A stretch of 58,285 nt of DNA, taken from IMG/VR virus record IMGVR_UViG_3300050190_000052, positions 1 through 58,285 of that record; one strand, written 5' to 3'. Both the position numbers and the translations under genes were made by a program. The notes under the pieces are model-generated. The model was not told where the DNA came from and searched no databases. It saw only the letters and a program-made list of their open reading frames with translations. Of the stretch, positions 9,601-56,483 are shown piece by piece; positions within the stretch are counted from its first letter, which is position 1; the number at the start of each line of letters is the position of its first letter. The stretch is from a virus.

Positions 9601-10125
9601 GGCGGCGACTGGAAGACGATCACCAGGGAAGATTACGAAAAAGGCGCCGGCGTCGAGCCGATCAGTGATCCGCAGATGGTTACCGACATGCAACGCCTCG
9701 GCAGGGCACAGTTCCTGCTGACCTTCAAGGATGATCCTCGCGTCAAGGGGGAGAAAATCATTCTCGACGCGTTCACCGCGGCGATGATCCCGGACGCTGA
9801 AAGCTACATGACAGAGGCGCCGGCGCAGCCTGATCCAAAGATTCTGCTGAAAAGCCGCGAGCTGGATATCCGCGAGAAACGGGAGATGATCGAACTGATG
9901 TTGCGCCACGAACATGACAAGGCGCTGATCATCGGGGAGATATGCAAGGCCGAATTGGCGTTGGCTCAGGCGAGGAAGCTTGACAATGACGCGCAACTGG
10001 GGTGGGTGGAGCAACATATTGAACACCTGAAAGCACAGGTCGATGCCATTGCCACCCTATCGCCCCCGCCAGCCGGTCCCACCGCCGATGCCGGGGGAGG
10101 AGCGAGTCCCCCCGCTTCTCCGTGA
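6694..10125 (+). CDS. P22-like portal protein with in-frame intein
   Basis: 1143-residue precursor; removal of the intein (residues 120-472) leaves a 790-residue portal, near the ~725 of P22 gp1. The join reads PWPEA + SNVIYPLM, continuing TTAAIQFAARAYPAI, a hallmark of this portal family; WDLDGDGYPEPYIITVARD is another. The portal forms the dodecameric ring through which DNA enters. A Pro/Gly/Gln-rich linker (about residues 530-590) interrupts the clip/wing region. The start is supported by GGAGG about 10 bases upstream. The C-terminus is a long helical segment, as expected for a barrel or crown. It sits directly after the packaging genes and before capsid genes. Confidence 0.93.
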   Translation: MSATLAPPPPPNGISSIAALAGGTGASPPISSEPDDHPNPELRDQLTRWVGMKNIAADPDDNMEPNPEIGDDIARIAARVRSDYDIDELSRADWREKYRKWLDCALQVTEHKTYPWPEACFSLDTDVLTDSGWKPVAEIAIGERVLSRAPSGAAAFYPVTERHRFTALSMVHFTGKSIDLMVTPNHRMLVESKFGKRKKQHFIEAGRFLEERLAFRYIPLTSQWTGDPLSEIHGVSAEAYARFLGWYISEGSAFTGHNTHTLKDGTFRDYGKSPSSFAIAQSQTANPVKFERLRHDIEACRFTCKATPTGYIVHARSMPNAAKDELRSLGLSHQKHVPDYLLTASVPVLKALLDGLMAGDGCIRERNGKEESWSYSTVSRRLSDQMQDICQKIGWRATVAERAAVVGGVINGRQITGAQTCYLIAINRKSRIQVVKMDRQAVFGPCEVACVTVEPHHTLYVRRNGKALWCGNSNVIYPLMTTAAIQFAARAYPAIIRDRNVVKGTVIGDDKGVINPAFVHLLQAAHAHDQAMAQQQQQGGQPPPGGPPPGAQPPGPGPMQQSGPAASPQPGPGMPPPGQAGPGMGLPAGMPRQWLEEPGAKQKRALRIGRHMSWQLLFEQEEWEPQTDTLLVALPIVGTYFRKSYYDQSLGRNVSETVDALALCVNYYAKSFETSPRKTESIRMYPDEIETAIRSGLFIDWDGDGALAYGHDSGVTMEDEKRRDPNSQQDEDAAVTFLEQHRRWDLDGDGYPEPYIITVARDSGKLARIVAGFEMDGVHFNRKGQVRKIDVVAVYTKYGFIPNPDSKVYDLGFGHLLFPINEAVNTTINMMIDSGHLQIVGGGFIGSGLSINTGTVRFTHGEYKPVNTFGGNIRDNIYQIPFPGPNPILMQLLQFLIESGERVASVKDVMVGDMPGDNTSGITTLAVIEQGLKVFSAIYKRIHRSLGYEFKKQYQLNRKYSRKESQYQEGGDWKTITREDYEKGAGVEPISDPQMVTDMQRLGRAQFLLTFKDDPRVKGEKIILDAFTAAMIPDAESYMTEAPAQPDPKILLKSRELDIREKREMIELMLRHEHDKALIIGEICKAELALAQARKLDNDAQLGWVEQHIEHLKAQVDAIATLSPPPAGPTADAGGGASPPASP
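7051..8109 (+). other. LAGLIDADG intein inside the portal gene
   Basis: 353-residue insertion that keeps the portal reading frame. It starts with Cys (CFSLDTDVLTDSGW, splicing block A), has block B with TPNH (MVTPNHRML), two dodecapeptide-like endonuclease motifs (FLGWYISEGSAF and LLDGLMAGDGCI), then block F (EPHHTLYVRRNG) and ends WCGN, followed by Ser as the +1 residue. The penultimate residue is Gly instead of the usual His, a known but less common variant. Both acidic residues expected in the LAGLIDADG pair are present (E in ISEG, D in AGDG), so the homing nuclease may be active. Confidence 0.93.
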
Positions 10126-19229: not shown

Positions 19230-19289
19230 CGTCCGCCCCGGCACGCTTATCGCAATTCCTTTTCGCGGGATAACCAGGAGGGTAGTGTC

Positions 19290-19763
19290 ACGGCTGATGA
19301 TCGGCATTACATAGGCGGAGATAACTATATTTTAGACGACCTGAGCGGCTTCAAAATCCGCGCGTCGAAAGCCCGCATCATTCCTGGCGGCCAGACGGGC
19401 AATCTGGCGGTGGCTCCGGACCGGTGGGAACCGCAGCAACCCCAGGATTTCGTAACTGGCGTACGAGACGATCAGGTGGCCCAACTCGTACGGCCGCGGC
19501 AGGTCAATCAGTTCGTCATCCTTGGCACCTTCGTGACCGCCCCGTCCGCGCGTCAGTCGAGCGCCATCACCGTAGACTCTACTGTCGGCTTCTCGATCGG
19601 CAATCGCATCCAGATCATGTTGGATAGCGGCGAGAATTTTCTGACCCATATTGGCGGAATTTCCGGGTATATCTTCACATTGGCCACACCGCTTCCCGCA
19701 AGTGTGGGGTCGCTCTTCGGTGATCCGATCGAGAACTCGGTGCTTCAACTGAGTCTGACCTGA
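19290..19763 (+). CDS. Conserved tail-region protein, near-cognate start
   Basis: Conserved phage-type protein: YIGGDNYILDDLSGFKIRAS then KARIIPGG near the start, QPQDFVTGVRDDQ, and a C-terminal beta repeat (VDSTVGFSIGNRIQIMLD). The coding signature begins well before the first ATG/GTG (19410), and no ATG, GTG or TTG is in frame upstream. AGGAGG at 19276-19281 stands 8 bases before an in-frame ACG (19290), the best start candidate; CTG at 19341 is another. The frame is also continuous with the tailspike frame beyond its TAG. Confidence 0.6.
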   Translation, partial: TADDRHYIGGDNYILDDLSGFKIRASKARIIPGGQTGNLAVAPDRWEPQQPQDFVTGVRDDQVAQLVRPRQVNQFVILGTFVTAPSARQSSAITVDSTVGFSIGNRIQIMLDSGENFLTHIGGISGYIFTLATPLPASVGSLFGDPIENSVLQLSLT

Positions 19764-19764
19764 A

Positions 19765-21168
19765 ATGGCGAATTTTCAGGTCTGGTTTCGACTGAACAAC
19801 GGCGAATGGAACGGCAGCCCGTCCGCCGATCCGGTTGCCAACGTTGGCGGCATCGACATTTCGGCGATGGCTGGCACCACGATGTTCCCGACAGTCCAGG
19901 CGACCGGCGATGCCGGGATCACCTGTAATTTCGGCGCGACGGGGTTTTCATTCTCCGTTCCCTCTGGATACACCGCCGGCTGGCCGCATGTCGGCGGCGG
20001 CTTCACCACGCTCGATCCGACCAAGCTCTATGGCAGTGCGTCGATAAGCGGAGCGGACCTTGCTTGCTCCTTTCCGACTGCTGCCGGAATGGCGCAGGCG
20101 GTCGATGGCTACGCGACCGGCCAATACTATTTCGAGTTGGTCAATCCAACGGCTGATATCTTCTCAGCCTGGTGGGGTGGCGGCGTCGCTGCCAATTTCG
20201 CGGCCGGCGGCAATTATAATTACTGGATGGTCGGCGCCGCATTCAGCGGGTCCAGCAATCTGGGCGGCGCGCAAGTATCCGGCCAGGGCCTCGCGCACGA
20301 ACTTTCGTCCTTGATAGCGCTTGGATCGGCGGTTGTCCGGGATGTGTTCGACTTCGCGGCTGGAGTGGGAAACGTCGTTGGTGTCGCGGTATTCCTGACG
20401 GCGATCCCCTTACAGCCGGGTGTTCCAGCCCCATTCTGCGGCGACACGCATACCACCTCCAGCTTTACAGCCTCCTGGACACCGGCCGGCGCCGCGGCGA
20501 CATCCTACACGTTGGATTATCGCAAGGTGCTCGATGTCTCCTTCACTGAGATAACGGGGATTACCGGGACCAGTCAGGTTATTACCGGCCTTGACCGGGG
20601 CACTGCCTATGAGTTCAAGGTCAATGCCATCAATGGCGCGGGTGACAGCGGCTTTTCTGCCCTCACGCAATGCTCTACCAGCACGGTTTTCGCGCCCGTC
20701 AGCGCCGGGGCCACGCTCTGCGGCTGGCGCGGCCTGTGCGGCATCAACTGGCACGGCATGGCACTTGTGGGCGACAAGTTCAGCAACGTCATCGGCCTGT
20801 CGGACTTCACCATTTTCAAGGAATACAGCAACCCGATGCGGATGCTGGTGACATCCCCCCCGATGCACGATGACCGCAAGCGCATCTTCGTTCCGAGGTT
20901 CGAAATCGAGGTTGAGGCAGGGCTCGGACTTCCCAACGCCCCGGAGACCGCCCCAATCATGGTGCTCGACATATCGAAGGACGGCGGCGTGACGTGGCAA
21001 CCGATGCAGAAATTCCGTTCCATGGGAGCCGCCGGGGAGTATCGCAAGCGCTTGCGGTGGCTGGCGCTTGGTCACGCCAGGCAGTGGATATTCCGGCTCA
21101 CCTATTCGGACGCGGCACGGCCTGCCATTATCGGCGCCTATGGAGATTTCAATAAGGGGCTCGGTTAA
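19765..21168 (+). CDS. SPRY-like/FN3 protein with gp10 C-terminal domain
   Basis: 467 residues in three parts. Residues 1-~205: beta sandwich resembling SPRY-type phage domains (GFSFSVPSGYTAGW). Residues ~215-305: fibronectin type III (SFTASWTP...YTLDYRKV...ITGLDRGTAYEFKVNAINGAG). Residues ~318-467: the C-terminal half of P22 gp10-like DNA-stabilisation proteins (GWRGLCGINWHGMALVGD, KRIFVPRFEIEVEAGLG, DISKDGGVTWQ, RKRLRWLALGHARQWIFRLTYS shortened to LRWLALGHARQWIFRL). The matching N-terminal half is a separate gene at 23139. Overlaps the next start by one base. Confidence 0.75.
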   Translation: MANFQVWFRLNNGEWNGSPSADPVANVGGIDISAMAGTTMFPTVQATGDAGITCNFGATGFSFSVPSGYTAGWPHVGGGFTTLDPTKLYGSASISGADLACSFPTAAGMAQAVDGYATGQYYFELVNPTADIFSAWWGGGVAANFAAGGNYNYWMVGAAFSGSSNLGGAQVSGQGLAHELSSLIALGSAVVRDVFDFAAGVGNVVGVAVFLTAIPLQPGVPAPFCGDTHTTSSFTASWTPAGAAATSYTLDYRKVLDVSFTEITGITGTSQVITGLDRGTAYEFKVNAINGAGDSGFSALTQCSTSTVFAPVSAGATLCGWRGLCGINWHGMALVGDKFSNVIGLSDFTIFKEYSNPMRMLVTSPPMHDDRKRIFVPRFEIEVEAGLGLPNAPETAPIMVLDISKDGGVTWQPMQKFRSMGAAGEYRKRLRWLALGHARQWIFRLTYSDAARPAIIGAYGDFNKGLG

Positions 21169-23138: not shown

Positions 23139-24359
23139 ATGGCTGAACTTCAGTTCGCAGCCCAGAGTTATCAGGCCAGAAGCATGCAACTGCTCGCGCA
23201 GCAGTGCATGAACGCCTTCGTCGAGCCGACACCGAAAGAAGGCAAGACCCAAATGCCGATCTATGGCATTCCCGGGCTCAACCTGTTCTCTCGGTTCGGC
23301 AACGGGCCAGTGCAGCAGATGCACATCATGCTGGATACCCTGTATGCGATATCTGGCGGGGAGCTTTGGTCCATCAATTACTCCGACGCGCTCAATGCCC
23401 CGGCGGGCACGTCGGTGCCGGCAACATTCTGGGGCGAGACGTCGATTGGAGGACTCTATGTTTCCATGGCGGACAATGCCAACCAGTTAGTCATGGTCGA
23501 TGGCGACGTGGCCTGGATCTTTCAGTGGGGCGGTCTCAATCAGGTGACGACGGCGACTCAGGAAGCTGGCGCCACTTTCGTCGAAGCGAATATCATAGGG
23601 ACGATTACCAGCGGCGACACGATCTTCATAGCACTCGACAGCGGCGCGACGTTGACCACGACGGCAACAGTGACTGTGGGACCGTTGGATCTCGGTATCG
23701 CGTTTGCTGATCCGCTTCCGGCAGTCCTCACCGCGGGCGCCATTATCATCGATCCGTCCAATACGCTGGCGGCGATCACCGCTCCGTCCTTCCAGCCGGC
23801 GACAACGGTTCGCTACTTCGACGGTTATTTCGTCTTCAGTGCGAAGAACACTCGGCAGTTCTTTCTGTCTTCGATTAACGATGGAACGCAATATTCTGGT
23901 TTGGACTTCGCTACCGCCAGTTCGGGCAGCGATTTCATTCAGGCCGTGGAGATATATCATGAGCAGTTGCTGTTGTTTTGCCGGACCTATACGGAAATCT
24001 GGTGGGACTCGGGAGCCGTGACATTCCCGTTTCTGCGGTATGACGCAGCGCAAATTGCCCGTGGTCTGGCGTCGCCCTATGCGGTGTGCTCAGAGGACAA
24101 TACGGTTTTCTGGATCGGCGAAGATGGGATCTCCTACCGCCTGAATGGGTTTCAGCCCACGCGAATAAGCACCTTTGCGATGGAGCACGCATGGGCACAA
24201 TATCCATTGAAGTTCAACGACGTCAGCATGTTCGTTCTCGACCAGGAGGGACATAAATTCGTGGTTTGCAATTTCTTCAGTGGATGCGCCACATGGGTGT
24301 ACGACATCGGAAGCACCCTTTGGCATGAACGACAGAGCTTCGGGACGCCCTGGGTTTAG
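23139..24359 (+). CDS. gp10-like DNA-stabilisation protein, N-terminal half
   Basis: 406 residues. It opens with QSYQARSMQLLAQQCMNAFVEP and YGIPGLNLF (in two pieces: SMQLLAQQCMNAFVEP), the N-terminal signature of P22 gp10-like tail-hub proteins, and runs through a beta-propeller-like body to YDIGSTLWHERQSFGTPWV. Family members normally continue after the WHER segment into the domain found here in the gene at 19765. So this is the N-terminal half of a split hub protein. It should sit below the gp4-like ring and close the DNA channel. Confidence 0.78.
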   Translation: MAELQFAAQSYQARSMQLLAQQCMNAFVEPTPKEGKTQMPIYGIPGLNLFSRFGNGPVQQMHIMLDTLYAISGGELWSINYSDALNAPAGTSVPATFWGETSIGGLYVSMADNANQLVMVDGDVAWIFQWGGLNQVTTATQEAGATFVEANIIGTITSGDTIFIALDSGATLTTTATVTVGPLDLGIAFADPLPAVLTAGAIIIDPSNTLAAITAPSFQPATTVRYFDGYFVFSAKNTRQFFLSSINDGTQYSGLDFATASSGSDFIQAVEIYHEQLLLFCRTYTEIWWDSGAVTFPFLRYDAAQIARGLASPYAVCSEDNTVFWIGEDGISYRLNGFQPTRISTFAMEHAWAQYPLKFNDVSMFVLDQEGHKFVVCNFFSGCATWVYDIGSTLWHERQSFGTPWV

Positions 24360-24376: not shown

Positions 24377-26914
24377 ATGTCTGGTAGCAGCAAAAACAGT
24401 TCCGTAGCGCCCACCAAACTCACACCGATGGCGATGGATCAGCCGATCGGTCAGACTGGCGACGGCCAACCGATCCTTGCGACCAGTTATTTCGGCCAGG
24501 TGATAACGCGGATACTGGCGTACCTCGGACAGCCCGCGCCGGCCAGTGCGAGTGGCGGCGGCGGCAGCGGAGGCAACAATCTAACCATATCGGAACAGAT
24601 CAGCCAACTTAATACCTCGATAACCGTGCTCCAGGCTGCTGGATCTTCATCATCCGGGATGTCCGGTCGCATATCGGGGATCGAGGAGGCCCTTCAAAAA
24701 ATCCGGCCCTGGGTTCCATCCGCGCCAGCCATGCCGGGCGCCGCGGGAGCGGCTGGACTGACAGGACTGCGCGGGGCACCTGGACTACCTGGATCAAACG
24801 GCCTGCCCGGGCCGCCAGGACAACCCTCCGAGTGGAGCGGTGGGACGGTGTCGGCAGTCGGCACATCGCTCGCCATCACCTCCGGGACCATCAACCTCGG
24901 CACTGTGGCGGCCGGAAACATCCTGGGTAACTCAGGCAGCGTGGGGGCAATACCAACAGCAACGGCGATCGGAGCCAATCTGACGATCGCGGCAGGAACC
25001 CTGAGTGCCAGCGCGGGAGGGTCGACAACGACGATAATCGCTGGATCGAACCTCAATGTTGGCGCGGGGCCGGGTGGGACGATAACGACCAGCGGAACCC
25101 TCAATCTACAGAACTCGCCGACGATCTCAGTGTCCTCGACGTTCCCGATGGTCCTGGACGGCGGAACGGTTGTCTCCGCAAGCCCCTTGCCGAGCGGGAC
25201 GCTTCTGCAACTGAGCAATATCAACGGCCAAAACACACGTATTCTGCTTGATGCTTTCGGCCACAATTCCGGGCGACTTTCCTCCCGTCAGGCAAATGGG
25301 ACCAGTAGCGTTCCGCTCGCGAGCTCTTCTGGATATGCCAATTGGACTGCGGACGGGCTGGCGTTCGACGGCACGAATTACGTTGCAAATGCGAGTATAA
25401 CCTTTTTAACGGCCGAGAACATTACGCCCACGGCAAATGGCGGCCAGATGCAATTTGCGGTTTCACAAATCGGATCTGTTACTTCTGTGACCCCTCTTAC
25501 TATCGTGGGTAATGCGAATGGCGTTGTGCTTGTGGGTAATGGCGCGACGGTATCAGGGACCGACGTACTTCAGGTCACCGGTGGAACGGCAACCGACAAC
25601 CTGGGCGTCTCGGGGACACTTTCTGCCTTTCCGTTTGGCGCCGGCCTGACACTGACGGCGGGCTCACTCGCGGCCACTGCCGCCGCGCCAGAGTGGACGG
25701 CCGGCACAGTCACGGCCATTGGGTCCAATGTCACACTGACCGCCGGGACTCTCTCGGCTACGGCGCCGGGGACCGGCACGGTCACCAACATTGCTACCTC
25801 GGGCGCGGGGATCACGGGCGGTCCAATCACCACGACAGGCACGCTCGCCGTCGAGTGGAATGGCGGCACGGTGGCATCACTCGGAACCGGGCTGTCGCTC
25901 GTGGGAACGGCGCTCACCCCCACCTATCAGGCCGGCTCTCTCACTGCGTTTCACGCCGGGCTTACTCTGGCCACGGGGACGCTAACGCCCGACTGGAATG
26001 GCGGTGTGGTGACCGCGATTGGGTCCAACGTCACCTTGACGTCAGGCACGCTCTCGGCCTCAGCTCCCGGCACTGGCACCGTGACGCAACTCGTCGCTGG
26101 ATCGAACCTCACCGGTGGGACGATCACCGGGTCGGGGACGGTCGCGATCCAGTCAAGTCCAACCTTCGCGGCGGCGGCGGGATATGCCCCAGTTGTAGTC
26201 AATGCCAATAGCATCATACCGTCCGTCCCGACCCACAGTGGTACGGTAATCCAACTTGTCGGAGCGCCTGCGGCAAACTCCAGGTTCTTGATTGACGCCA
26301 TCGGCGGAAATCCTGCTTACTCAGGACGGCGAGCGGATGGGACCGCTGGTACGTTGAGTGCCGTTTCTTCCGGCGAAAACCTTACGACATTCTCGGTGGC
26401 AGGCTACGGCGCGACAAATTACGGAACGAACCAAACTTTTCTACAGGTCACCACTTCCGAGAACTATACTGACTCCGCCCAAGGCTTCGGTATCTCTTTT
26501 AGCACCGTCGCGAATACAACGGTTACGCTTACGCAACGCGGAACGATAACAAACGATGGCATACTGGTCTGGGGCGCGACCACGGCCACCGGCGCCGCTA
26601 AACTTCAGGTCACCGGTGGAACGGCAACCGATACGCTCATCCTGAATTCAGCGACTGTCCTCCCGGTCCTGACAGGCACCACGGGCAGCATCGGGGGTTC
26701 GGCTCTTCTCGCTGGCCAGGACGCAACGGGGACGGTGGCCATCGCCGGGGTCACAACGGCCATGGCGGTAGATGCGTCGCCGGTCACCTATCCTGGGGCC
26801 GGGGTGTTCTGGAACGGCTACGTGTCGTCGGCGGGAACGGTCACGGTTGCCGTGGGAGCGGCCATAGCGCTGACTCCTGCGGCCTCGAATTATAACATTC
26901 GCGTTACTCAGTGA
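24377..26914 (+). CDS. Tail fibre with coiled coil and collagen-like triplets
   Basis: 845 residues: short N-terminal attachment region, Gly-rich linker, a coiled coil (~70-110), then a short collagen-like Gly-X-Y run (GLTGLRGAPGLPGSNGLPGP), followed by ~600 residues of repeated beta motifs. The repeats read roughly 'GTVTAIGSNVTLTSGTLSA...GTGTVT' and are visible in DNA too: a ~30-base segment near 25570 recurs near 26609. This is typical of trimeric fibres. The C-terminus ends in a small beta domain. It follows the hub gene and likely attaches to it. Confidence 0.72.
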   Translation: MSGSSKNSSVAPTKLTPMAMDQPIGQTGDGQPILATSYFGQVITRILAYLGQPAPASASGGGGSGGNNLTISEQISQLNTSITVLQAAGSSSSGMSGRISGIEEALQKIRPWVPSAPAMPGAAGAAGLTGLRGAPGLPGSNGLPGPPGQPSEWSGGTVSAVGTSLAITSGTINLGTVAAGNILGNSGSVGAIPTATAIGANLTIAAGTLSASAGGSTTTIIAGSNLNVGAGPGGTITTSGTLNLQNSPTISVSSTFPMVLDGGTVVSASPLPSGTLLQLSNINGQNTRILLDAFGHNSGRLSSRQANGTSSVPLASSSGYANWTADGLAFDGTNYVANASITFLTAENITPTANGGQMQFAVSQIGSVTSVTPLTIVGNANGVVLVGNGATVSGTDVLQVTGGTATDNLGVSGTLSAFPFGAGLTLTAGSLAATAAAPEWTAGTVTAIGSNVTLTAGTLSATAPGTGTVTNIATSGAGITGGPITTTGTLAVEWNGGTVASLGTGLSLVGTALTPTYQAGSLTAFHAGLTLATGTLTPDWNGGVVTAIGSNVTLTSGTLSASAPGTGTVTQLVAGSNLTGGTITGSGTVAIQSSPTFAAAAGYAPVVVNANSIIPSVPTHSGTVIQLVGAPAANSRFLIDAIGGNPAYSGRRADGTAGTLSAVSSGENLTTFSVAGYGATNYGTNQTFLQVTTSENYTDSAQGFGISFSTVANTTVTLTQRGTITNDGILVWGATTATGAAKLQVTGGTATDTLILNSATVLPVLTGTTGSIGGSALLAGQDATGTVAIAGVTTAMAVDASPVTYPGAGVFWNGYVSSAGTVTVAVGAAIALTPAASNYNIRVTQ

Positions 26915-27027: not shown

Positions 27028-27369
27028 ATGGCACCGCCGGTTCAGCAGATCATCGAGACCCAACAGCTCGGCAGCAGCGCCGGGCTGCTTTACACATCCC
27101 CATCGAACGTCTGGACGCAGATCATCGCATTGACCGCGGTGAACACGGACACGGCGACCCGCACGATTACGCTCTACATCGTGCCAAGCGGTGGATCGGC
27201 CGGCGCACCGACCGAAAGCACGCCTCCTCGCGCGCTCCTCGCCGGCGGCGGCTACAATGGCCAGAACGAGTATGGGATGGTCCTCAATCCCGGTGACGCG
27301 ATATGGGGCGTTGCCGACACCGCGGCGAAGGTGAACGTATTCGCCTCTGGCCTGTTGAACGTGTCCTGA
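27028..27369 (+). CDS. Small structural protein, 113 aa
   Basis: Beta-type protein (LLYTSPSNVWTQIIALTAVN, ITLYIVPSGGS, LNPGDAIWGVAD), resembling small fibre-associated proteins that follow tail-fibre genes. The ATG follows CAGGATGTGGAATTCGC, a moderate ribosome site. Function unknown. Confidence 0.6.
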   Translation: MAPPVQQIIETQQLGSSAGLLYTSPSNVWTQIIALTAVNTDTATRTITLYIVPSGGSAGAPTESTPPRALLAGGGYNGQNEYGMVLNPGDAIWGVADTAAKVNVFASGLLNVS

Positions 27370-27370
27370 G

Positions 27371-27925
27371 ATGGGGCATTTCACCCTCATCGCCAAGGAT
27401 ATAGACGTCGCGCCATTGCTGGCCGAGATCGACGCCAATCCTGGACTCTGGAATGACCGTCCAGAGCGGCGTGCGGGCAATTCGCCGCATCGGGAGACAT
27501 CGGACCTCTGGATCCGGTATGCCAGCAAAGAAGAGATGCGCGGGCCGGGATTTATGCAACGGGAACACCAATCGGTCTGGTGGCCGGCCTTTCATGTGCT
27601 CCTTTCGCTACCGTCCATAATCGTGCAGTTCATGCGATTGGTGAGTCCGGTGCGAACCGGCGGCATCCTGATGACCCGCATCCCGCCCGGTTGCCAGGTC
27701 TATCCGCATGATGACCGGGGAAGCTGGCACTCAGAGTATTACACCACCAAGGTCTGGCTTGTGCTCCGGGGGAATGACCGGTGCGTGAACACCGTCGAGG
27801 ACGAGGAGATGGTGTGGAAGCAGGGAGAGGCATGGAGCCACGATAATCTGATTACGCATTCAGTGCGGAACGACGGCGACTCCGAGCGGATTGTTCTCAT
27901 AATGTGCTTCAGGAGGGACGAATGA
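27371..27925 (+). CDS. AspH-like Fe(II)/2-oxoglutarate oxygenase
   Basis: 184 residues with the core of the aspartyl/asparaginyl beta-hydroxylase family: GGILMTRIPPGCQVYPHDDR and GSWHSEYYTTKVWLVLRGN, a distal WSHDNLITHSVRNDGD that should supply the second metal His, and a final RIVLIMCFR strand. His in YPHDD and His in THSV are the probable Fe(II) ligands. Placed in the tail module with a cupin gene overlapping its end. Possible substrates are a phage tail protein or a host surface/ribosomal protein; the sequence does not say which. Confidence 0.75.
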   Translation: MGHFTLIAKDIDVAPLLAEIDANPGLWNDRPERRAGNSPHRETSDLWIRYASKEEMRGPGFMQREHQSVWWPAFHVLLSLPSIIVQFMRLVSPVRTGGILMTRIPPGCQVYPHDDRGSWHSEYYTTKVWLVLRGNDRCVNTVEDEEMVWKQGEAWSHDNLITHSVRNDGDSERIVLIMCFRRDE

Positions 27926-28287
27926 TCCGGTCCGTTCTTGAACCGTTCGCCATGGCGTTTCCGGCCGACAATATCCGACATCATTTTGTTGGTCAGGACG
28001 ATGCGAAGGGCATCTACGCGAAGGAGTTGCGCATTCCCGCCGGCTTCGTTCTGGTGTCTCATGAACATGATTACGACCATCTGAGCATTCTGGCCTCTGG
28101 CACCATCCGGCTGATGATCGACGGTGCCACATGGCTTTACCATGGACCGATCGCGCTGCCGATCCGGAAGGGTCAGCCGCACACACTCACCGCGGTAACC
28201 AATACCGTATGGTTCTGCATTCACCCGACCGACGAGACTGACGAGGCGAAGGTCGATGATGTGATCCTGTCGAAGGAACTGAGATAA
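27922..28287 (+). CDS. Cupin-like small beta-barrel protein
   Basis: 121 residues; starts at ATGA overlapping the upstream oxygenase. The sequence AGFVLVSHEHDYDHLSILASG fits the first cupin motif (given in two pieces: GFVLVSHEHDYDH, LSILASG) with His residues able to bind a metal; PIRKGQPHTLTAV fits the second. Coupled translation suggests the two proteins work together or on the same target. Confidence 0.68.
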   Translation: MIRSVLEPFAMAFPADNIRHHFVGQDDAKGIYAKELRIPAGFVLVSHEHDYDHLSILASGTIRLMIDGATWLYHGPIALPIRKGQPHTLTAVTNTVWFCIHPTDETDEAKVDDVILSKELR

Positions 28288-28360
28288 TGGTTAATCCTAA
28301 CCTCCTGTCCGGCAAGCGGCGCCCTCGCGCGGCTTTGTCGGCGACCCAGGAGTAAAGCCG

Positions 28361-29233
28361 ATTCCGTGGGCCGCGGCCGGAGCTGCTATCAGTGCAGTCG
28401 GATCGATTGGGGGTTCTCTCCTCGGATCCAATGCTGCCAGTAGTGCCGCAAAGGCGCAGGAGCAGTCGCAGCAAAATTCGCTCGACTGGATAAAGCAGAA
28501 CTATGGACAGACCCAATCCAACCTTCAGCCTTATATGAGCGGCGGGACTTCGGCGCTTGGCTCATTGCTCAGCCTGTATGGACTACCAGGCGGCACGGCC
28601 GGCGGCGGAAGTGCAGGGGGCGCGGTGGGGGCCGGTGGCACTGGTGGGCCTCCAGGGTCCGCTCTGGGAGGAGCCGCCGGGGCGTTTGCTCAGTTCCAAA
28701 GCACTCCGGGCTATCAATTCCCGTTGCAGCAAGCAAACCTTGCGACCAATCGCGCGCTCGCCAGTTCCGGCCTCACCGGCAGCCCGGGTGCGATCGGTCG
28801 AGATATTGGGCAGTTGAACGCTGGATATGCGAGCCAGGGCTTCAATCAGTATACGAGCGGGTTGACCGGCCTCGCCAGTTCAGGCCAGAACGCGGCTTCA
28901 TCGCTCGGCAGCATCGGCCTTGGAACCGGAGCACAGATCGGCGCCGCCAATACGAATTACGGCAATGCCGCCGCACAGGGCATCATGAACAGCGCCAGCG
29001 CGACCAATCAAGGAATTGGCCAAACCGGCGGCTCGATCGGCAGTGCGCTCAATAATCCATCTGTGCAGAATGGCCTTAGTAACCTTTTCGGAATGGGCCA
29101 GTCGTCTTACGCATCACAGATCGCCAATCCCAATACGAACTATAACGCTGCCACGAGTTCATTCATTGGAGCGAATTCGTCCGCCACCAGTCCACTGGCC
29201 GCCTCGGACGCCACATTTAGTTTCGGTACATAG
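28361..29233 (+). CDS. Ejection/internal virion protein, apparent ATT start
   Basis: 290 residues, Gly/Ala/Ser/Asn rich. Frame and composition extend 58 codons upstream of the first ATG (28535). The proposed start is ATT at 28361, preceded by AGGAG (28348-28352) with 8-base spacing, giving an N-terminus (M)PWAAAGAAISAVGSIGGSL typical of this DNA-transfer protein type, then an amphipathic stretch QNSLDWIKQNYGQTQSNL. No ATG, GTG or TTG lies in this frame between the preceding stop and 28535. A 22-codon ORF (28287-28355) ends inside the AGGAG. Confidence 0.6.
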   Translation: MPWAAAGAAISAVGSIGGSLLGSNAASSAAKAQEQSQQNSLDWIKQNYGQTQSNLQPYMSGGTSALGSLLSLYGLPGGTAGGGSAGGAVGAGGTGGPPGSALGGAAGAFAQFQSTPGYQFPLQQANLATNRALASSGLTGSPGAIGRDIGQLNAGYASQGFNQYTSGLTGLASSGQNAASSLGSIGLGTGAQIGAANTNYGNAAAQGIMNSASATNQGIGQTGGSIGSALNNPSVQNGLSNLFGMGQSSYASQIANPNTNYNAATSSFIGANSSATSPLAASDATFSFGT

Positions 29234-31363
29234 ATGTCCGGTTCCATCATGCAATTCGCTCCGGTCGCCGCGCCGGATATCGTTGGCCAGGAACAGAAAT
29301 GGGCCGGGTTGGGGCAGACTCAGGCGCAAACCGGGCTGATCGGGGCACAGGCCGCGCTCACATCCGCACAAGCCGGCGGGATCCCGTCCGAGATCGCGCT
29401 TCGGCAGGCTCAGGCCGGGCAAGCTCAGGCGCAAGCGGGGCTGATCGGGGCACAAGCTGGCGCAATTCCGTCCGAAATCGGATTGCGCGGGGCTCAGGCC
29501 GCACAAGCGAGTGGAGCAGCGGCGAGTTCTACTGCGACCGCAGCACAAACCGGACAGGATACTTACGCCAAGCGTTTGCAAAACCTCCTGACAGGCTCAG
29601 CTATAAATCAGTCAGGTGTGATTGGTCAGGTGCCTCCTCCGCCGGATGGAAGCGGTCCCCGTCTTCCGATCGGCCCAGCGGTCGATCCGTCTGCGGCGCC
29701 CTACATTCCGCCCGAGGGCCAAGGCTTGTTGCGTGCCTTGTCACCATCCGAGTCTCCATCGGCGAACGTGCGATATGTGCCGCCGCAGAGCGGACGATCC
29801 CCAACATTTGACACGTCGCAGGGCCATCCTGGCGCGGGAGCAGCCGGACTTTACCAGTTCGAGCCAGCGACATGGAAAACGGCGTCGGCTGGCGCTGGCG
29901 TAGATCCGAACAACATGAGCCAAGGCAATCAGGATCGCGCCGCATGGTGGCTCGCACAGAAAACCTACAATGATCAAACTGGACAGGATCTCGACACTGA
30001 CCTCAAAGCTGGTGGTCATGAGGCGCAGATCACTGCCGCCCTTGCTTCTCAGTGGCCGTCCATCACCGGAGGTTCGCAACAGAACAAAACCGGCGAATCG
30101 TTCATGCGACGACTTCCTCTGACGGTTGCCCATGAAACGCAGCAAAGTGGGGTAGCCGATCCAGGCGGCCATACGGGACCAGACACGCGCGCCAATGTTC
30201 CGACGACAGCGGGCGCCACGTGGCCACAGCCGCCATCAGCATCGACCGCATCCGCTCCAACACCGTCGCCAACAGGCGCAACGCCCATTCGGCCGGTGAT
30301 GATCCCAGGCATGCCGGGACCCTCTCCTGGCACGCTTGCCATGCAGCCGGGTGGCCTGATGGGATCGCCCGAACAAAGGACTCAGTTCCAAACGCAGCGC
30401 GCGAATAATATGGCCACGATCTTCAGCAGTCAGCCGGACGCGCCGACCGGAATTCAGGCGCTGTCGGATGGTGGTTACATCACGCCGGCGCAGAAGCAAA
30501 CGCTTCTGGCAAATCCAGACAGCGCGCGGAACTTCATCGCCCAGCAACTGCCAATCGCCAATCAGCCGACGCCTGGTATCAAGGCGCAGATCGAGCGCGA
30601 CACGCCTCTGATGGCCTCCGATCTCTCGAAGAATGAAGCGAATGTTGATGCTGGAATGAAAGCTGCGACCGACCAGTACAATCTACAAAACATCAAGGGA
30701 ATGGTCGCTGGAACGCCGGATGATCTTCTCGGGGCCGGGAGTGATACCAGACTGGCCATTGCGGCATACGCCAAGGAATTCGGAGGCTCCTGGTCTCAGG
30801 GCATAGCCCAGCATTTGACGGGCGTTGGCCCCATGGACGTCTCTCAGCTTCAGGACTTGCAGAAGTCATTCCTGAGCAACGTCATGTCGAACGAACGGAC
30901 GCAGGGCGTTCAACGTATCGGCGCGATGTCTACCCAGTATTTCGCGAAGGCCAGCCCCTCGATCGACATGACCAAGCCGGCGGTCCAGCAGATCACGAAC
31001 CTTGGTCAGGTCGCCCAGCAGATGACGCGCGACTTTGCTGACGCCTCCAATGACTTCTATTCGACGCAACGGGACGCCACGAACGACTCTTTGGTCTCGG
31101 GACCGTATAAGCGATATCAGCCGATGACGGCGTTGGAGAAGCAGTGGCTGTCTCCGGACTCGCCGCACGGCCCGGATGTCTACGCCGCCGCGGCCAATCT
31201 GATGAACGGTATGCCGCCAGCAAAGGCGTTCGCGACATTCGGCCCGGGCACGGACGCTAAGCCGAACCTCGTCAACCGCGCCAAGCAACAAGAGGCGGTG
31301 GCTATCATCAAACGGGTTGATCCAAACGGTCTGGCTCACCTTGGTTACCAGGCCGCGCAGTAG
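29234..31363 (+). CDS. Ejection protein with degenerate muramidase-like domain
   Basis: 709 residues. N-terminus has amphipathic tandem repeats (QAGLIGAQAG.IPSEI.LR.AQA, repeated at DNA level near 29334 and 29438). Residues ~195-290 resemble the second half of a phage muramidase/transglycosylase domain (GAGAAGLYQFEPATWKTA, NQDRAAWWLAQKTYN, FMRRL); the upstream part that normally carries the catalytic Glu is not evident, so activity is doubtful. The remainder is helical. Such proteins enter the cell envelope with the DNA. Confidence 0.68.
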   Translation: MSGSIMQFAPVAAPDIVGQEQKWAGLGQTQAQTGLIGAQAALTSAQAGGIPSEIALRQAQAGQAQAQAGLIGAQAGAIPSEIGLRGAQAAQASGAAASSTATAAQTGQDTYAKRLQNLLTGSAINQSGVIGQVPPPPDGSGPRLPIGPAVDPSAAPYIPPEGQGLLRALSPSESPSANVRYVPPQSGRSPTFDTSQGHPGAGAAGLYQFEPATWKTASAGAGVDPNNMSQGNQDRAAWWLAQKTYNDQTGQDLDTDLKAGGHEAQITAALASQWPSITGGSQQNKTGESFMRRLPLTVAHETQQSGVADPGGHTGPDTRANVPTTAGATWPQPPSASTASAPTPSPTGATPIRPVMIPGMPGPSPGTLAMQPGGLMGSPEQRTQFQTQRANNMATIFSSQPDAPTGIQALSDGGYITPAQKQTLLANPDSARNFIAQQLPIANQPTPGIKAQIERDTPLMASDLSKNEANVDAGMKAATDQYNLQNIKGMVAGTPDDLLGAGSDTRLAIAAYAKEFGGSWSQGIAQHLTGVGPMDVSQLQDLQKSFLSNVMSNERTQGVQRIGAMSTQYFAKASPSIDMTKPAVQQITNLGQVAQQMTRDFADASNDFYSTQRDATNDSLVSGPYKRYQPMTALEKQWLSPDSPHGPDVYAAAANLMNGMPPAKAFATFGPGTDAKPNLVNRAKQQEAVAIIKRVDPNGLAHLGYQAAQ

Positions 31364-34029
31364 TGGCTGACGCGGCAACCACATTCGATCCATTTGCCGC
31401 CAACGGCTTTGTCCCGGTCAATGACAATGGACAGAAGCCCGGGCTCTCGCCAGTAATCGATATCGGCGGGGAAACCAACATTGATCCGGCGGCTCAGCCT
31501 GGAACGGCCGGCTCTGGCACCATCGCATCTCAGGTCGGCGGCCCGCCGACACCGAACCCGGCGCCGCTGACCGTTCCTCCAGGGACGCCGATACAGCGGA
31601 TCACGCCAAGAACTGACCCGGTCGAACTCGGTCTCCTCAATGACACGCTGGACGCTTCGCCCGGCGCGCCAGCAGCGCCATCAGCGACGGCGCCTGAACC
31701 AACCAAAACGACCGCCTTCGATCCCTTCGCCGCCAATGGGTTTGTCAAGTCTGACACCACTCCAGCGACTGTGCCGGCTACGTCCGAAACATCCACGACG
31801 GCGCCGGCTACCGCTCCTCCGACCGATCCCGTCGTCAAAATGCTTGGTGGCCCATATCCGCCATCGACATCGCCGGAGTTCGCCGCGCTTCCGTGGGACC
31901 AACGTTTGAAGGCAAGTTTCGTCGATGCTTTTCTGGACCCTGCCAACACACGCCTTGCCGCGGGCCAGTCTGCATCGCATGGCGCTACGATGGGGTACGA
32001 CGAGGATGCAGTCCCAGCGGTATCGGCCGCGATCGACAGCCTGACAAAGGGCGTTCCTTTCGCTCCGGCTTATGATCAGGCGCGGCAGGAAATGAAGGCG
32101 AACCGTATCGCTTTCGAGAAACAGAATCCAGTTACTGGAACCGCTCTTGAGCTTGCCGGCGGACTTGCCTCAACCCCCGTGACCGCTCCGCTGTTCGGCC
32201 CCGGCGCGAGTTTTATGGGAGTCGGACGTAATATCATCGCTGGCGCCGGGCTTGGAGCCGCGGCCGGCTTTGGTCAAACCGAAGGGGATACGTCGCAGCG
32301 TCTGCAAGGCGCTCGGCAGGGCGCTGAAATGGGAGGCGTTCTATCCGCCGCCGCACCGACGATCGGCGCCGTTGGCACCAGACTGAATACAGCCTTGCGG
32401 CCGAACGCGGCAATTGACAACCTGGCGGGCGGCGCGTTGCGAGACGCCGCCGGACTGAGCCCAACCGACGCGGTACCGACGCCAACCCCATCCCCATTGC
32501 CGAACATGCCAATCGGTGTGGCTGGTGGCTTCAATTCACCGGGACTCGCCTCGACCGAACGGTTGCTGAACACAACCGACAATACCGGCGCGTTGGTTGA
32601 GAGGACTGCGCAGAATCAGGCGATCCAGACGGCAGCGACAGGAACCGTCCCAGGGCTGCCAAGACTGGCCGAACCGGCAACGGTATCCGACGCGGCGACC
32701 GAGATGACCAACGCGATGCAGGGCGCACACGGCGTTTTGCGTGATGAAGAACGCCGGCTCTGGACCACACAGCCAATGCAGACCGTGCAACCGGATATCC
32801 CAGCAGCGGTGGCGCGGGTGCAGAGGACGATCGGTGGACTTCCGGCGCGCTTCCAAAACGCCATGACGCGCAATGCGGACGTCTACAACGCGTTGCAGGA
32901 CTTCTATAATCTGCCGAAAAATGCATCGCTGCACGACATGAACTCGGCGCGAAGCGACATCCTCGCCGCCGCGCGCGGGCTGCCGGCCAGCGAGCGGTTT
33001 GCCCGCACAGCCGCGACCTCGGCGGGCGACGCGATCCTGGATGCGATCGAAAGCAATCCAGGTCTGCGTGCCAATCCACAGGCCCTCTCCGATTACCGGC
33101 GCGCGCGGACTTACTCGCGTCGTCTCAATGACGCGTTCGAAAAGCCGCAATTCCAGGCAATGGTGAACGCACAGCCCGGCAATCGCAAAGGGCTCGACCC
33201 GGCGGTGGTCGGGCGCAAGGCTTTCAATTTAACGACAGCGAGTGAGAAAACCCCGGGCGGTGTCAATCATATCCTAGGCATGCTGGATGATCTCAGGCGT
33301 ACATGGGGGAGCCTCGCCACTGCGAATGCAGGGATGCCATTGCCCGGCTTGAGTCCCGCCGCCGCATTCGGAGCGCGCGCCGAGTTGGCGCAGGGATACC
33401 GGAACGTCATTATCAACTCGATGCTCGATGCCGCATCGTCTACGGAGCGTGATCTATCCGGCAAGCCGAACATCATCATGAACCGGCTCTCAGAAACGAT
33501 CGACAGCAACCGCGGGTGGATCCAGCGTAGTGGCGCGATGTCGCCGGCACAGATGGACGTCGTGGACGCGATACGAGATGCCGCCGTGATGGCCGCGAAG
33601 CGTGAGGCTCTACGCGGCGGTCGCGGCAGTGAGACATTTGAGCGTCTGATCGGCGACCGTTATCTGGATGTGTTCCTGGGCCCCGTTCTGAGCCGGGTGC
33701 TTCCTCGCGTAGGCGGCGCGATCGGCGGGGCGATTACCGAGCATGTCGCGCCGGGGTTTGGCATTGGCGCGCTGATCGGCATTGAACTGGCGGGCGCTGG
33801 CCACAGCACGACAACGGCGCTACAGAGCCTCTATGCGATGCCGCGCGCTGCCCTGCGCCAACGACTGAACGAAGCGATCAGAGATCCAGCCATTGCCGCT
33901 GACCTCATGCGCCGTGCGGGTAGCAGCGTCAGTCCTCAGACCAAGCAATGGGCCAGGTCCCTCCTGGCAATGGAACCGGCCGCCACAGCCGCGCGCACGC
34001 TTGGTCCAACTCAGGGAGCCACACAATGA
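31363..34029 (+). CDS. Large ejection/internal virion protein
   Basis: 888 residues; GTG start overlapping the upstream stop. The N-terminal ~150 residues are disordered and carry the motif FDPFAANGFV twice. A hydrophobic Gly/Ala-rich region (~residues 255-310, ELAGGLASTPVTAPLFG onward) could insert in membranes; the C-terminal ~500 are helical with another hydrophobic Gly-rich stretch near 790-815. The layout is like P22 gp16/gp20-type DNA-transfer proteins. Third of three consecutive ejection-type genes. Confidence 0.68.
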   Translation: MADAATTFDPFAANGFVPVNDNGQKPGLSPVIDIGGETNIDPAAQPGTAGSGTIASQVGGPPTPNPAPLTVPPGTPIQRITPRTDPVELGLLNDTLDASPGAPAAPSATAPEPTKTTAFDPFAANGFVKSDTTPATVPATSETSTTAPATAPPTDPVVKMLGGPYPPSTSPEFAALPWDQRLKASFVDAFLDPANTRLAAGQSASHGATMGYDEDAVPAVSAAIDSLTKGVPFAPAYDQARQEMKANRIAFEKQNPVTGTALELAGGLASTPVTAPLFGPGASFMGVGRNIIAGAGLGAAAGFGQTEGDTSQRLQGARQGAEMGGVLSAAAPTIGAVGTRLNTALRPNAAIDNLAGGALRDAAGLSPTDAVPTPTPSPLPNMPIGVAGGFNSPGLASTERLLNTTDNTGALVERTAQNQAIQTAATGTVPGLPRLAEPATVSDAATEMTNAMQGAHGVLRDEERRLWTTQPMQTVQPDIPAAVARVQRTIGGLPARFQNAMTRNADVYNALQDFYNLPKNASLHDMNSARSDILAAARGLPASERFARTAATSAGDAILDAIESNPGLRANPQALSDYRRARTYSRRLNDAFEKPQFQAMVNAQPGNRKGLDPAVVGRKAFNLTTASEKTPGGVNHILGMLDDLRRTWGSLATANAGMPLPGLSPAAAFGARAELAQGYRNVIINSMLDAASSTERDLSGKPNIIMNRLSETIDSNRGWIQRSGAMSPAQMDVVDAIRDAAVMAAKREALRGGRGSETFERLIGDRYLDVFLGPVLSRVLPRVGGAIGGAITEHVAPGFGIGALIGIELAGAGHSTTTALQSLYAMPRAALRQRLNEAIRDPAIAADLMRRAGSSVSPQTKQWARSLLAMEPAATAARTLGPTQGATQ

Positions 34030-35389: not shown

Positions 35390-36757
35390 ACACTCCGTCA
35401 GCTAAAGCAGACGGCTTCTCAGGCAAGCTATGCGGCAATCCGCTGGCTTGGCGCCTGAAGGCTAGTTCCTGGCCCGAAGTTCGCCCGCATGAGCACGATG
35501 CGCGCAGCCGCTACGTCGCGGTCGGCATGATACCCGCAGTCGCAGGTATGCCGCCGATCGGCGAGCGTCTTACGTCGGATCGTGCCGCATTCAGGACACG
35601 TCTGGCTTGTGCCGCGAGGACTGACCAGTTTGAGCACGCCACCAGCATTTTCGGCTTTGTAGGCGATCTTCTGGACGAGACTGTTCCACGCGGCGTTATG
35701 CACGGACTTGGCGAGCATTCCCGCCGCCAGTCCTTTGATGTTCAAGTCCTCCATTGCGAGGTGCGAGAAGCGGTCTACCAGCGACCGGGACAGCTTATGC
35801 GACGTATCCCGCCGTTGATTGGCCGTCTTGGCGCTATGTCGGGCAACCCGCAGCTTGGCCTTTGTGAGTCGCTTACTGCCACGCTTGCAGCGCGAGACGG
35901 CACGTTGCAGCCGGCGCAACCTCTTGGCGGCGGCTCGCGTATGCTGCGGTGTCGGCACGGTCTCGCCATTGGACAGCGCCACCAGAGACGTGAGGCCAAG
36001 GTCGATACCGACCGGGGTGAACGGCCGCTCTATCGGTTCGGCATCGGCCAGCGTGATCTGGAAATAAACATACCATTTACCGCACGAGCGGCTGATGATG
36101 GCCGCGCCAACCTTGGCCCCCGGTGGCAAGTCGCGGTGCCAGCGGACCTTGATTTCGCCCGGTATGCCGACCATGCCGAGGCGCTTGCTCTTGCGGATCG
36201 TCAGGCCATCACCGACCCGAAAGTCCGCACTGTCGAACATCGACTTGGCGCGGAACCGAGGGAGGCCAGCTTTTCCGCCCCTCTTGACCCGACCGAAGAA
36301 CGCCGAGAACGCCCTATCGAGACGGCGCAACACCTGCTGTTCGGCGGAGAAGCTGTATCCCGCCAAACGCTCATCCGCGACGCGGATGGCCTTCAATTCG
36401 GCGGCCTGATTGCCGTAACGCAGGTTGATCCCGCGACGCTGGTAGGCTTCAATCCGCTGTTGCAGACAGGCGTTGTACAGATCGCAGAACGCGCCGAGCA
36501 TGTCGGTCAATGCGGTTTCCTGCGCGCCCGTAGTGAACAGGCGAAACTTGAAGCTGCGGACCTGGGGCGTTACGATTTGGTCAGCCATGTTGAGGTTCAA
36601 TCTCGACTGGTCAGAGGTGTCGTCAGTGTTTCCAGCACTGGCGGCATCTCGTCTTATACCCCAGTTCATTACCCAGTTCAACGGCCGTGTGCCACGCTGT
36701 CGCGCGGCCCGGCTTTCCTCCGTCGCCTGAAGGCGACGGTTCACTGATGGAGGCGTG
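35390..36757 (-). mobile_element. IS1341-type element carrying TnpB (element 1)
   Basis: TnpB-only element on the minus strand. Ends are marked by DNA hairpins: CCGTC-loop-GACGG at 35395-35414 (right end, after tnpB) and CCGTCGCCTGAAGGCGACGG at 36720-36739 (left end). Both have counterparts in element 2 with compensatory base changes. No TnpA gene is present, so movement would need a transposase in trans. The omega-RNA scaffold should overlap the tnpB 3' end and right-end hairpin (about 35390-35550, minus strand), with its guide read from the flank just below 35390 (inference). Boundaries are approximate. Confidence 0.75.
35428..36588 (-). CDS. tnpB: TnpB RNA-guided nuclease (element 1)
   Basis: 386 residues from the start at 36588. 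RuvC residues are all visible: Asp in VGIDLGLTSLVAL, Glu in LAMEDLNIKGL, Asp in the closing HADRDVAAA. The zinc ribbon is CPECG...CDCG. The N-terminal wedge-like region begins RSFKFRLFTTGAQETAL. The usual TnpB length is ~350-420. TnpB proteins cut DNA guided by omega-RNA and help retain their element. All key residues are intact, so it is probably functional. Confidence 0.88.
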   Translation of the reverse strand: MADQIVTPQVRSFKFRLFTTGAQETALTDMLGAFCDLYNACLQQRIEAYQRRGINLRYGNQAAELKAIRVADERLAGYSFSAEQQVLRRLDRAFSAFFGRVKRGGKAGLPRFRAKSMFDSADFRVGDGLTIRKSKRLGMVGIPGEIKVRWHRDLPPGAKVGAAIISRSCGKWYVYFQITLADAEPIERPFTPVGIDLGLTSLVALSNGETVPTPQHTRAAAKRLRRLQRAVSRCKRGSKRLTKAKLRVARHSAKTANQRRDTSHKLSRSLVDRFSHLAMEDLNIKGLAAGMLAKSVHNAAWNSLVQKIAYKAENAGGVLKLVSPRGTSQTCPECGTIRRKTLADRRHTCDCGYHADRDVAAARIVLMRANFGPGTSLQAPSQRIAA

Positions 36758-36759
36758 CC

Positions 36760-36933
36760 GTGCTTTTGGTAATTTTGGTGGTGATCTTGTTGTTCGGCGG
36801 ACTTGGCGGCGGTTATTGGGGCCAGTCGCGAGGCTACTACGGTGGCGGCGGCTTTGGCATCATCGGGCTCGTGGTGATCGTCCTGGTCATCGCGATGCTG
36901 TTTGGCGGGTTCGGACACGGCCTGAGATACTGA
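36760..36933 (+). CDS. 57-aa two-helix membrane protein (DUF3309-like)
   Basis: GTG start just beyond the left end of element 1. Two hydrophobic helices (LLVILVVILLFGGLGGG and FGIIGLVVIVLVIAMLFGG) are joined by a Tyr/Gly-rich loop, the layout of small DUF3309-like membrane proteins common in alphaproteobacteria and their phages. The original start could have been affected by the insertion. Confidence 0.6.
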   Translation: MLLVILVVILLFGGLGGGYWGQSRGYYGGGGFGIIGLVVIVLVIAMLFGGFGHGLRY

Positions 36934-36940
36934 CGTTGCT

Positions 36941-37024
36941 GTGACCGACCACGCCACGCTCATCGACGCGCTGGTCATCGCAGTGGCGATCGTGAAGCTG
37001 CTGTGTCTCGTGGCAGAGGGGTGA
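36941..37024 (+). CDS. 27-aa hydrophobic peptide
   Basis: GTG-initiated, one hydrophobic helix (LIDALVIAVAIVKLLCLV), lying between two membrane-protein genes with tight spacing. Weak evidence beyond composition and packing. Confidence 0.35.
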   Translation: MTDHATLIDALVIAVAIVKLLCLVAEG

Positions 37025-37028
37025 TTAG

Positions 37029-37793
37029 ATGACAACGCCGCGAAGATCATCCGAAGTGCTGCCAAACCCCGACCCGTCCCTGATTACCAACGCGGCGATC
37101 GATCGCGAGTCGCGGAGCCTTGAACAACGGGTCTTCGCTCGCATCGACGGCATAGAAAAAGCCATCGAGGTCCAGCACGCGGATATGGTTCGGGCTCCGA
37201 CTGAACTTGCCCGCGCGTTGCAGGCACAGCGGGATCTTTTCATATCGGATATGAAAACCTTCGGCGCCTCCATGGGGAGCCTGCAAAAAGAAGTCGATGG
37301 TATCACGAACTCGACGTTCATCACGGTCAGTAATCTGAAGGATCTTGTTTATAGCAAGATCGCCGAACTCTCTTCCGTAACGATAGAAAAGTTTGCCGGG
37401 GTTAACTCACAGTTTGAAGAGCGCGATACCCGGACCGACCAACGGGCCGGAGACACAAAACTTGCGGTAGATGCCGCGTTCGCCGCCGCCAAGGAGGCCA
37501 CTGCCAAAATCGAGGCTGGTTTCACCAAGCAAATCGAAAGCATGGCCGATCAGATCGGGACCATTGTGAAAAACGCTGATGACAAGGTTGGCGACCTGAA
37601 AGACCGGATCACCGCTATGGAAAGCCGCACCGCCGGGATGCAAAGCCAGACCACGGAGCGGCGGCTTGATGGCGGCGCAATGGTTGGCCTCATCGTCGCC
37701 GGTATGATGGCGATCTCCGTGACTATCAGCGTGCTCGGATATGCTGCGCTGCACACTGTCCCAACGGTCATTGTCGGTAAGCCAACACCATGA
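37029..37793 (+). CDS. Coiled-coil protein with C-terminal membrane helix
   Basis: 254 residues: long charged helical coiled coil (~30-215) and a single C-terminal membrane segment (GAMVGLIVAGMMAISVTISV). Tail-anchored coiled-coil proteins of this sort often sit in phage lysis cassettes as holin or spanin-like partners. The start follows GGGGTGATTAG. The stop overlaps the next ATG. Confidence 0.68.
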   Translation: MTTPRRSSEVLPNPDPSLITNAAIDRESRSLEQRVFARIDGIEKAIEVQHADMVRAPTELARALQAQRDLFISDMKTFGASMGSLQKEVDGITNSTFITVSNLKDLVYSKIAELSSVTIEKFAGVNSQFEERDTRTDQRAGDTKLAVDAAFAAAKEATAKIEAGFTKQIESMADQIGTIVKNADDKVGDLKDRITAMESRTAGMQSQTTERRLDGGAMVGLIVAGMMAISVTISVLGYAALHTVPTVIVGKPTP

Positions 37794-55648: not shown

Positions 55649-56278
55649 CTATTTTGCCATGTGAGCAGCAAGTCTGGCATCGGCATAATCCTCGCGCCTG
55701 TCGCGCACTCTGACGTACGCCCTGGCGTGATGCGTGGGGCAGTAACTGCTCCCGGGAGCCGATAGATCGTCGCATGAGTGGTAGTCTGGCGTCCCGGGTT
55801 CGCCGATCGGCCATAAACATTTGGCAACGCGACCGTAGCGCATCGTGGACAGAGCCGCCGGGGGCGGCGTGGGGGCCGGTCTGGCGACTGGGGGCATTGT
55901 GACCACAGGCTTGATCACGACGGCGTCTGGGGTGGCCTCAGGGAGCGTCGTGACGGGGTCCGCTGGCGCCTCTGAGCGCAGTGGTGGCAAGCCAGGAACC
56001 TTCATTCCGAGAGTTAGACGGTATCGGGCCTGACGTTCTCTCTCCCGGGCCGCCCGTTGCTCGATGTCTTCTGCGGATGGGGTGTGCCATTCGCCGTTGT
56101 CGCGTTTGATCGGCGAGGCGCGTGCGGGAAGGCCAAGGCGGTGCGCGCGTCCAATGCAGGCATTCTTGGTGCGGCCCATACGCAGGCCGATAGCGGATGT
56201 CGAAAGCCCCTCGTCCCAAAGCGTGCGTAGTTGTGCGATATCGTCGGGAGGCCAGTCATTGTGCTGTCTTTGGATCAT
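55649..56278 (-). CDS. gcrA: GcrA-family cell-cycle regulator homologue
   Basis: 209 residues. N-terminus is the GcrA DNA-binding segment: WPPDDIAQLRTLWDEGLSTS, then AIGLRMGRTKNACIGRAHRL; C-terminus has the GcrA signature CLWPIGEPGTPDYHSC...GSSYCPTHHARAY. In alphaproteobacteria GcrA is a transcription factor acting with sigma70, often at CcrM-methylated promoters. A phage copy could take over host cell-cycle promoters or serve its own. The start at 56278 is chosen for GGAG upstream; 56293 is also possible. The middle is Pro/Thr-rich. Confidence 0.85.
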   Translation of the reverse strand: MIQRQHNDWPPDDIAQLRTLWDEGLSTSAIGLRMGRTKNACIGRAHRLGLPARASPIKRDNGEWHTPSAEDIEQRAARERERQARYRLTLGMKVPGLPPLRSEAPADPVTTLPEATPDAVVIKPVVTMPPVARPAPTPPPAALSTMRYGRVAKCLWPIGEPGTPDYHSCDDLSAPGSSYCPTHHARAYVRVRDRREDYADARLAAHMAK

Positions 56279-56282
56279 CTCG

Positions 56283-56483
56283 TTACTCTCCATGTTCCGT
56301 CGCGGCTGATATAATCGCTGCCACATCGACCTGTAAAAGTCTGGCCAGCGGTTCGATTATTTTGACCGGAACGCGCTTTTTCCCTCGGATCATTTCCGAG
56401 AAATGCGATTTGGTCATGCCGATCTGTTTGGCCACCCAATTCTGTTTCAACCCGCGTTCTCGGATCATCGACTGAAGGTTCAT
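56283..56483 (-). CDS. XRE-family HTH repressor-like protein
   Basis: 66 residues from MNLQSMIRERGL. The helix-turn-helix is clear (GLKQNWVAKQIGMTKSHFSE), recognition helix TKSHFSEMI, then a short tail with LARLLQVDVAAIISA. The size and the divergent plus-strand gene at 56641 give a Cro/CI-like switch layout. Lacks a C-terminal oligomerisation domain. Confidence 0.78.
   Translation of the reverse strand: MNLQSMIRERGLKQNWVAKQIGMTKSHFSEMIRGKKRVPVKIIEPLARLLQVDVAAIISAATEHGE

Follow-up and report, generated by a model that had tools for sequence, protein, structure and literature searches.

A probable ATT start behind a small insertion in a phage DNA-ejection protein gene, and a second candidate near-cognate start at ACG

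AUU and ACG are weak start codons, and the AUU of infC from Escherichia coli is preceded by a Shine-Dalgarno sequence. The accessible part of one source describes that infC, the gene for IF3, starts with AUU and that the GTC start codon of sigR from Streptomyces is repressed by IF3 (PMC5472188). In phages, an AUU start was predicted for orf28 (terS) of the Streptococcus thermophilus phage TP-J34, where AAGGAGGT precedes the ATT and where resequencing excluded sequencing errors (PMC3952083, accessible part), and another phage paper, as far as its accessible part goes, reports one GTC start and two CTG starts that rest on annotation (PMC6389784). Our literature search found no further phage case of an ATT start beyond TP-J34, and a limited search for an ACG start in phages, which proves little, likewise gave no paper.

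The window, that is, the whole analysed stretch of 58,285 nucleotides of viral DNA, contains a gene for a predicted DNA-ejection protein (28361..29233, plus strand, 290 codons) with ATT as proposed start codon (28361..28363) and a gene for an unnamed protein of the virion module (19290..19763, plus strand, 157 codons) with ACG in the corresponding place. Like infC, the ejection gene would use AUU (PMC5472188, accessible part), but infC is a cellular gene autoregulated by its own product whereas here a phage virion gene with no known feedback is concerned. The non-canonical start of sigR has a functional meaning according to the same partial source, and differs in being a GTC in a cellular gene that was tested by mutation, whereas the present starts are predictions. 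With terS the ejection gene shares that it is a phage gene, there of the packaging module, and that the AUU start is a prediction in both; it differs in belonging to another phage and another gene, and the accessible part of the TP-J34 description mentions neither a mini-ORF nor an insertion. The relatives of the ejection gene in family phrog_598 begin with ATG, GTG or TTG and this lineage begins with ATT. Near-cognate starts are a known kind to which the present phage adds a case, two in one phage being unusual; notable are this joint occurrence and the insertion that explains one of them.

The ATT at 28361 is preceded by the Shine-Dalgarno sequence AGGAG (28348..28352, plus strand; duplex with the E. 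coli anti-Shine-Dalgarno about -6.9 kcal/mol) at a spacing of 8 bases (28353-28360) and is in frame with the open reading frame ending at 29233, which is open from 28301 onwards. The first ATG of this frame lies 58 codons past the ATT at 28535, with ATG, GTG and TTG absent between, so that the spacing and the length without a canonical codon were both correctly given in an earlier sequence-only reading; no Shine-Dalgarno sequence was seen before ATG 28535 when the sequence was read by eye. Translation from the ATT yields the N-terminus (I)PWAAAGAAISAVGS. The profile of the DNA-ejection family phrog_598 matches the protein at residues 7-234 with profile positions 8-205 of 240 (E=7.8e-21), which covers most of the family model, and the beginning of the family therefore falls on the ATT reading. 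By this profile match the predicted ATT-started protein is a member of the DNA-ejection protein family, its ejection with the DNA itself being putative. Counting both strands, the window has 3 copies of the motif AGGAG-N8-ATT where shuffling predicts 1.03, and at least 3 copies turn up in 7 of 100 shuffles; as the motif is not above chance, and wider patterns likewise are not, its rarity was discarded as evidence. It is lifted above chance because it coincides exactly with the start column of the homologs. A hairpin predicted over the Shine-Dalgarno sequence and the ATT was no stabler than those of shuffled sequences (z -1.09).

Among 50,697 named phage records, none matched the ejection gene at the protein or DNA level; a distant relative gave two weak hits. 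Relatives with about 50% identity were present in IMG/VR. The comparison of start codons that the sequence-only reading had proposed was carried out on 60 loci picked out of those found in IMG/VR. Of these relatives, 14 align from the first query residue onwards, and 12 of the 14 have a canonical start (9 ATG, 2 GTG, 1 TTG) exactly at the ATT column; the remaining two (L076 and L080) have an ATG 9 codons later. An exact ATG at this column is found in G004, G008, L048, L050, L058 and L064-L067 and, in a second scan comprising some of the same contigs, in L162, L163, L165, L166, L167 and L171. At the start, IPWAAAGAAISAVGSIGGSLLGSNA in the window is aligned with MPWGFAGAAIGAVGAIGSAVIGSNA in L065, and conservation among relatives extends up to the ATT, so that the proposed N-terminus fits its family both by profile and by the relatives' starts. 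With the loose criterion of a canonical codon within -20..+15 codons, 91 of 95 loci have one, one has it further upstream and three have none, while in the second scan of 76 loci the corresponding numbers are 70 near, 3 far and 3 none; in both sets the three loci lacking a canonical codon are records of the same phage. In bacterial genomes, no relative was found by the first scan and 13 loci were obtained by the second (alignment A2). Neither ATT nor ACG was found at the respective start in any relative examined. From a comparison of gene starts in seven phages (101 starts), near-cognate starts amount to 2 of 24 genes in the window versus 0 of 77 in six relatives (p about 0.055 by our own arithmetic), after 5 of 7 flagged genes, one of them looked at individually, had been set aside because their aligned codon lay deep within a longer frame (43 to 171 codons in).

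The second near-cognate start was not named in the sequence-only reading and is taken by us to be the ACG at 19290. It is preceded by AGGAGG (19276..19281, plus strand; about -10.8 kcal/mol), the joint strongest Shine-Dalgarno sequence of 24 starts computed. The claim of two near-cognate starts thus stands, whereas their identical spacing is only loosely so: AGGAGG is 8 bases from the ACG, but AGGAG is 9 bases from it and 8 bases from the ATT. The ACG column holds a canonical codon in all 22 viral loci outside this phage (21 ATG, 1 TTG), two of them being the two ends of one contig, and in all 10 Gluconacetobacter loci (2 ATG, 8 GTG). For both genes the canonical start of the homologs is aligned with the near-cognate codon, a Shine-Dalgarno sequence is at usable distance, and no in-frame canonical alternative exists, the first ones downstream being at 28535 and, 40 codons inside the ACG gene, at 19410. 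When the coding score was followed across the window, coding preceded any canonical codon only in these two genes, and no further near-cognate gene was found in the window in this way. Contig 3300036827_000134 (64,021 bases) carries the start of the counterpart of the ACG gene at both ends (L239, L257), which suggests a circular or terminally redundant genome. Ten genomes of Gluconacetobacter species (L130-L139, L143-L152) contain relatives of both near-cognate genes, suggesting a conserved prophage or a domesticated element.

The region in front of the ATT differs from that of the relatives, which had escaped the sequence-only reading. The upstream gene (27922..28287, plus strand; phrog_12032, phrog_24280) is cupin-like or tail-fibre-adhesin-like, with homologs in G004 and G005 and, more weakly, in G008. 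Relative to the ATG of the ejection gene, its stop begins at -2 to -5 in 10 of the 13 relatives compared, and at other positions in L058 (-12), L166 (-27) and L066 (+1). In the window it begins 76 bases before the ATT, and an ATG at 28287 overlaps it as TAATG; the same TAATG is found in G008 and L162, and TGATG in G004. Nine bases ahead of ATG 28287 lies AAGGA (28273..28277, plus strand), probably an older Shine-Dalgarno sequence, a similar stretch being present in L048, L050 and L064. From this position-equivalent ATG to the conserved codons CCG TGG, the window has about 74 bases (28290..28363, plus strand; 28287-28360 fits equally) that the relatives lack, and no other source of this segment was found among the loci compared. 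ATG 28287 lies in another frame than the ejection gene and opens a mini-ORF of 22 codons (28287..28355, plus strand) whose ATG overlaps the upstream TAA (28285-28287), whose end CAG GAG TAA carries the AGGAG of the ejection gene, and whose TAA ends 5 bases before the ATT. Sequence searches found no homolog of the mini-ORF, and it matched no known gene. The simplest reading of the alignment is that about 74 bases entered between the old ATG and the conserved CCG TGG in this lineage, and the ATT may be either a changed ATG or have arrived with the insert.

The same phage is represented by further records. G001, G002 and G003 (15.8, 45.6 and 19.5 kb) all carry the ATT and are about 99.98% or more identical to the window over the aligned stretches, with 1 to 6 substitutions; position 27034 differs in all three, positions 18102 and 18724 in those that cover them, and positions 16367, 15532 and 19 additionally in G002. 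These substitutions indicate that none of the three is a copy of the window's record. The ACG is also present in G002, G003 and G025, and the phage is nearly unchanged across five records. As the extra bases are present in all four records covering the ATT, they look like a real insertion rather than a base-calling error. The start positions, the extra segment and the agreement of the records are shown by sequence comparison. In G001, 1005 bases (25597-26601; 335 codons, in frame) of a collagen-like gene (24377-26914) are missing, and the junction has a 30-base overlap, which might reflect length variation or an assembly collapse.

Because three further records all carry the ATT, a sequencing error at this codon is unlikely, as judged from assembled records that may stem from linked samples. 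That sequencing or assembly errors produced both start codons, an alternative already raised by the sequence-only reading, appears extremely improbable: these are metagenome assemblies and errors in start codons do happen, but four records agree at the ATT and four at the ACG, the window counted in each case, yet differ elsewhere, and in the start region not just one base is changed but there is a rearrangement of about 74 bases. The same reading had held that relatives starting at the position of ATG 28287, together with an indel error, would speak against the ATT. The first half is borne out in an unexpected way, the relatives' ATG abutting the upstream stop as 28287 does, but the extra segment recurs in all four records and homologous coding begins right after the ATT. 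Translation might begin at ATG 28287 and enter the ejection frame without any start at AUU, either by a -1 frameshift or by a hop across the extra segment. The position of this ATG relative to the upstream stop and a frame open from 28301 are compatible with such a route; we give it little credence, as no canonical slippery heptamer was seen by eye between 28301 and 28352, the predicted N-terminal extension occurs in no relative, and a Shine-Dalgarno sequence rightly spaced from the ATT would be left unexplained.

Loss of start codons in a decaying, non-functional lineage, with the genes made poorly or from internal starts only, would account for two damaged starts in one genome that has also been entered by a TnpB-like transposase gene (35428-37065), but seems very unlikely given that the long structural frames are intact, that 24 genes of the window have alignable starts, that the phage is nearly unchanged in five records and that a Shine-Dalgarno sequence at good distance has been kept in both genes. 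The sequence-only reading had hinted at purposely low or IF3-controlled initiation; selection might instead have kept AUU and ACG for a low or IF3-dependent output of two virion proteins, in the manner of infC. This idea would suit a phage that has two such starts, each behind a good Shine-Dalgarno sequence and each constant in the near-identical records that cover it, as it would the repression of AUU and GUC starts by IF3 documented in the accessible part of one source (PMC5472188). We nevertheless regard it as rather doubtful: the codons are common to no relative, hence no trace of long-term selection is seen, near-identical records say little on selection, and a search of the window, G002 and G004 for an IF3 homolog gave none.

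The reading that we prefer, and consider probable, is that ATT 28361 is the start of the ejection gene following an insertion of about 74 bases, its AUU being fed by the Shine-Dalgarno sequence and by re-initiation, and that a second gene starts at ACG. In the ancestor, the ATG of the ejection gene would have lain across or directly against the stop of the cupin-like gene in front of it, and after insertion the ATG at 28287 would have come to open the mini-ORF. As termination-reinitiation calls for, the TAA at 28353-28355 and the AGGAG at 28348-28352 lie within a few bases of ATT 28361, translation of the mini-ORF being putative. Ribosomes terminating at this TAA would sit over the new Shine-Dalgarno sequence and could re-initiate at the AUU five bases on; alternatively, 30S subunits might bind AGGAG directly. 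The initiator tRNA would then pair with AUU in the P site, held by AGGAG, and the yield per mRNA would be expected to be low and IF3-sensitive. The ACG gene would initiate behind its strong Shine-Dalgarno sequence on its own, no mini-ORF ending at its start. Initiation itself, re-initiation, low yield and IF3 sensitivity are what we infer from this arrangement, and IF3-sensitive regulation of these starts is possible. A weak AUU or ACG start stands against the role of a virion protein, which might be thought to need more. A farther-reaching picture, unlikely in our estimation, is that the phage or its host, probably an alphaproteobacterium, copes with near-cognate initiation well enough for two virion genes to depend on AUU and ACG, and that the leader mini-ORF made by the insertion feeds an IF3-sensitive AUU switch for the DNA-ejection protein. 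No tRNA gene was found in the window.

A gene finder that accepts no start but ATG, GTG and TTG would shorten one virion protein by 58 residues and another by 40. The locus offers a clean comparative example of a phage gene that would have lost its ATG through a small insertion and continued from AUU, and a single genome provides two near-cognate starts that lend themselves to easy testing. Were initiation at them to depend on IF3, phage morphogenesis would be tied to the initiation fidelity of the host.

The ejection gene is followed on the same strand by two large genes (29234-31363 and 31363-34029, phrog_5880 matching the second), which, from gene order, are likely to encode further internal virion proteins. 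G002 matches window positions 1-37212 and runs beyond base 1 of the window, which is therefore probably not the whole genome. The portal gene (6694-10125, 1143 codons) has intein-like Hint_2 and LAGLIDADG_3 matches at about residues 120-402 and its portal match at 606-1094. The head-closure family phrog_578 is split over two separate genes, one half on each (19765-21168, which also has an fn3 domain, and 23139-24359), with another gene between them. The TnpB-like gene, also IS605 OrfB-like, is on the minus strand and has a Cas12f1-like TNB domain. A homolog of the cell-cycle regulator GcrA (55649-56326, minus strand, Pfam 4.3e-23) is also encoded, which we take to point to an alphaproteobacterial host.
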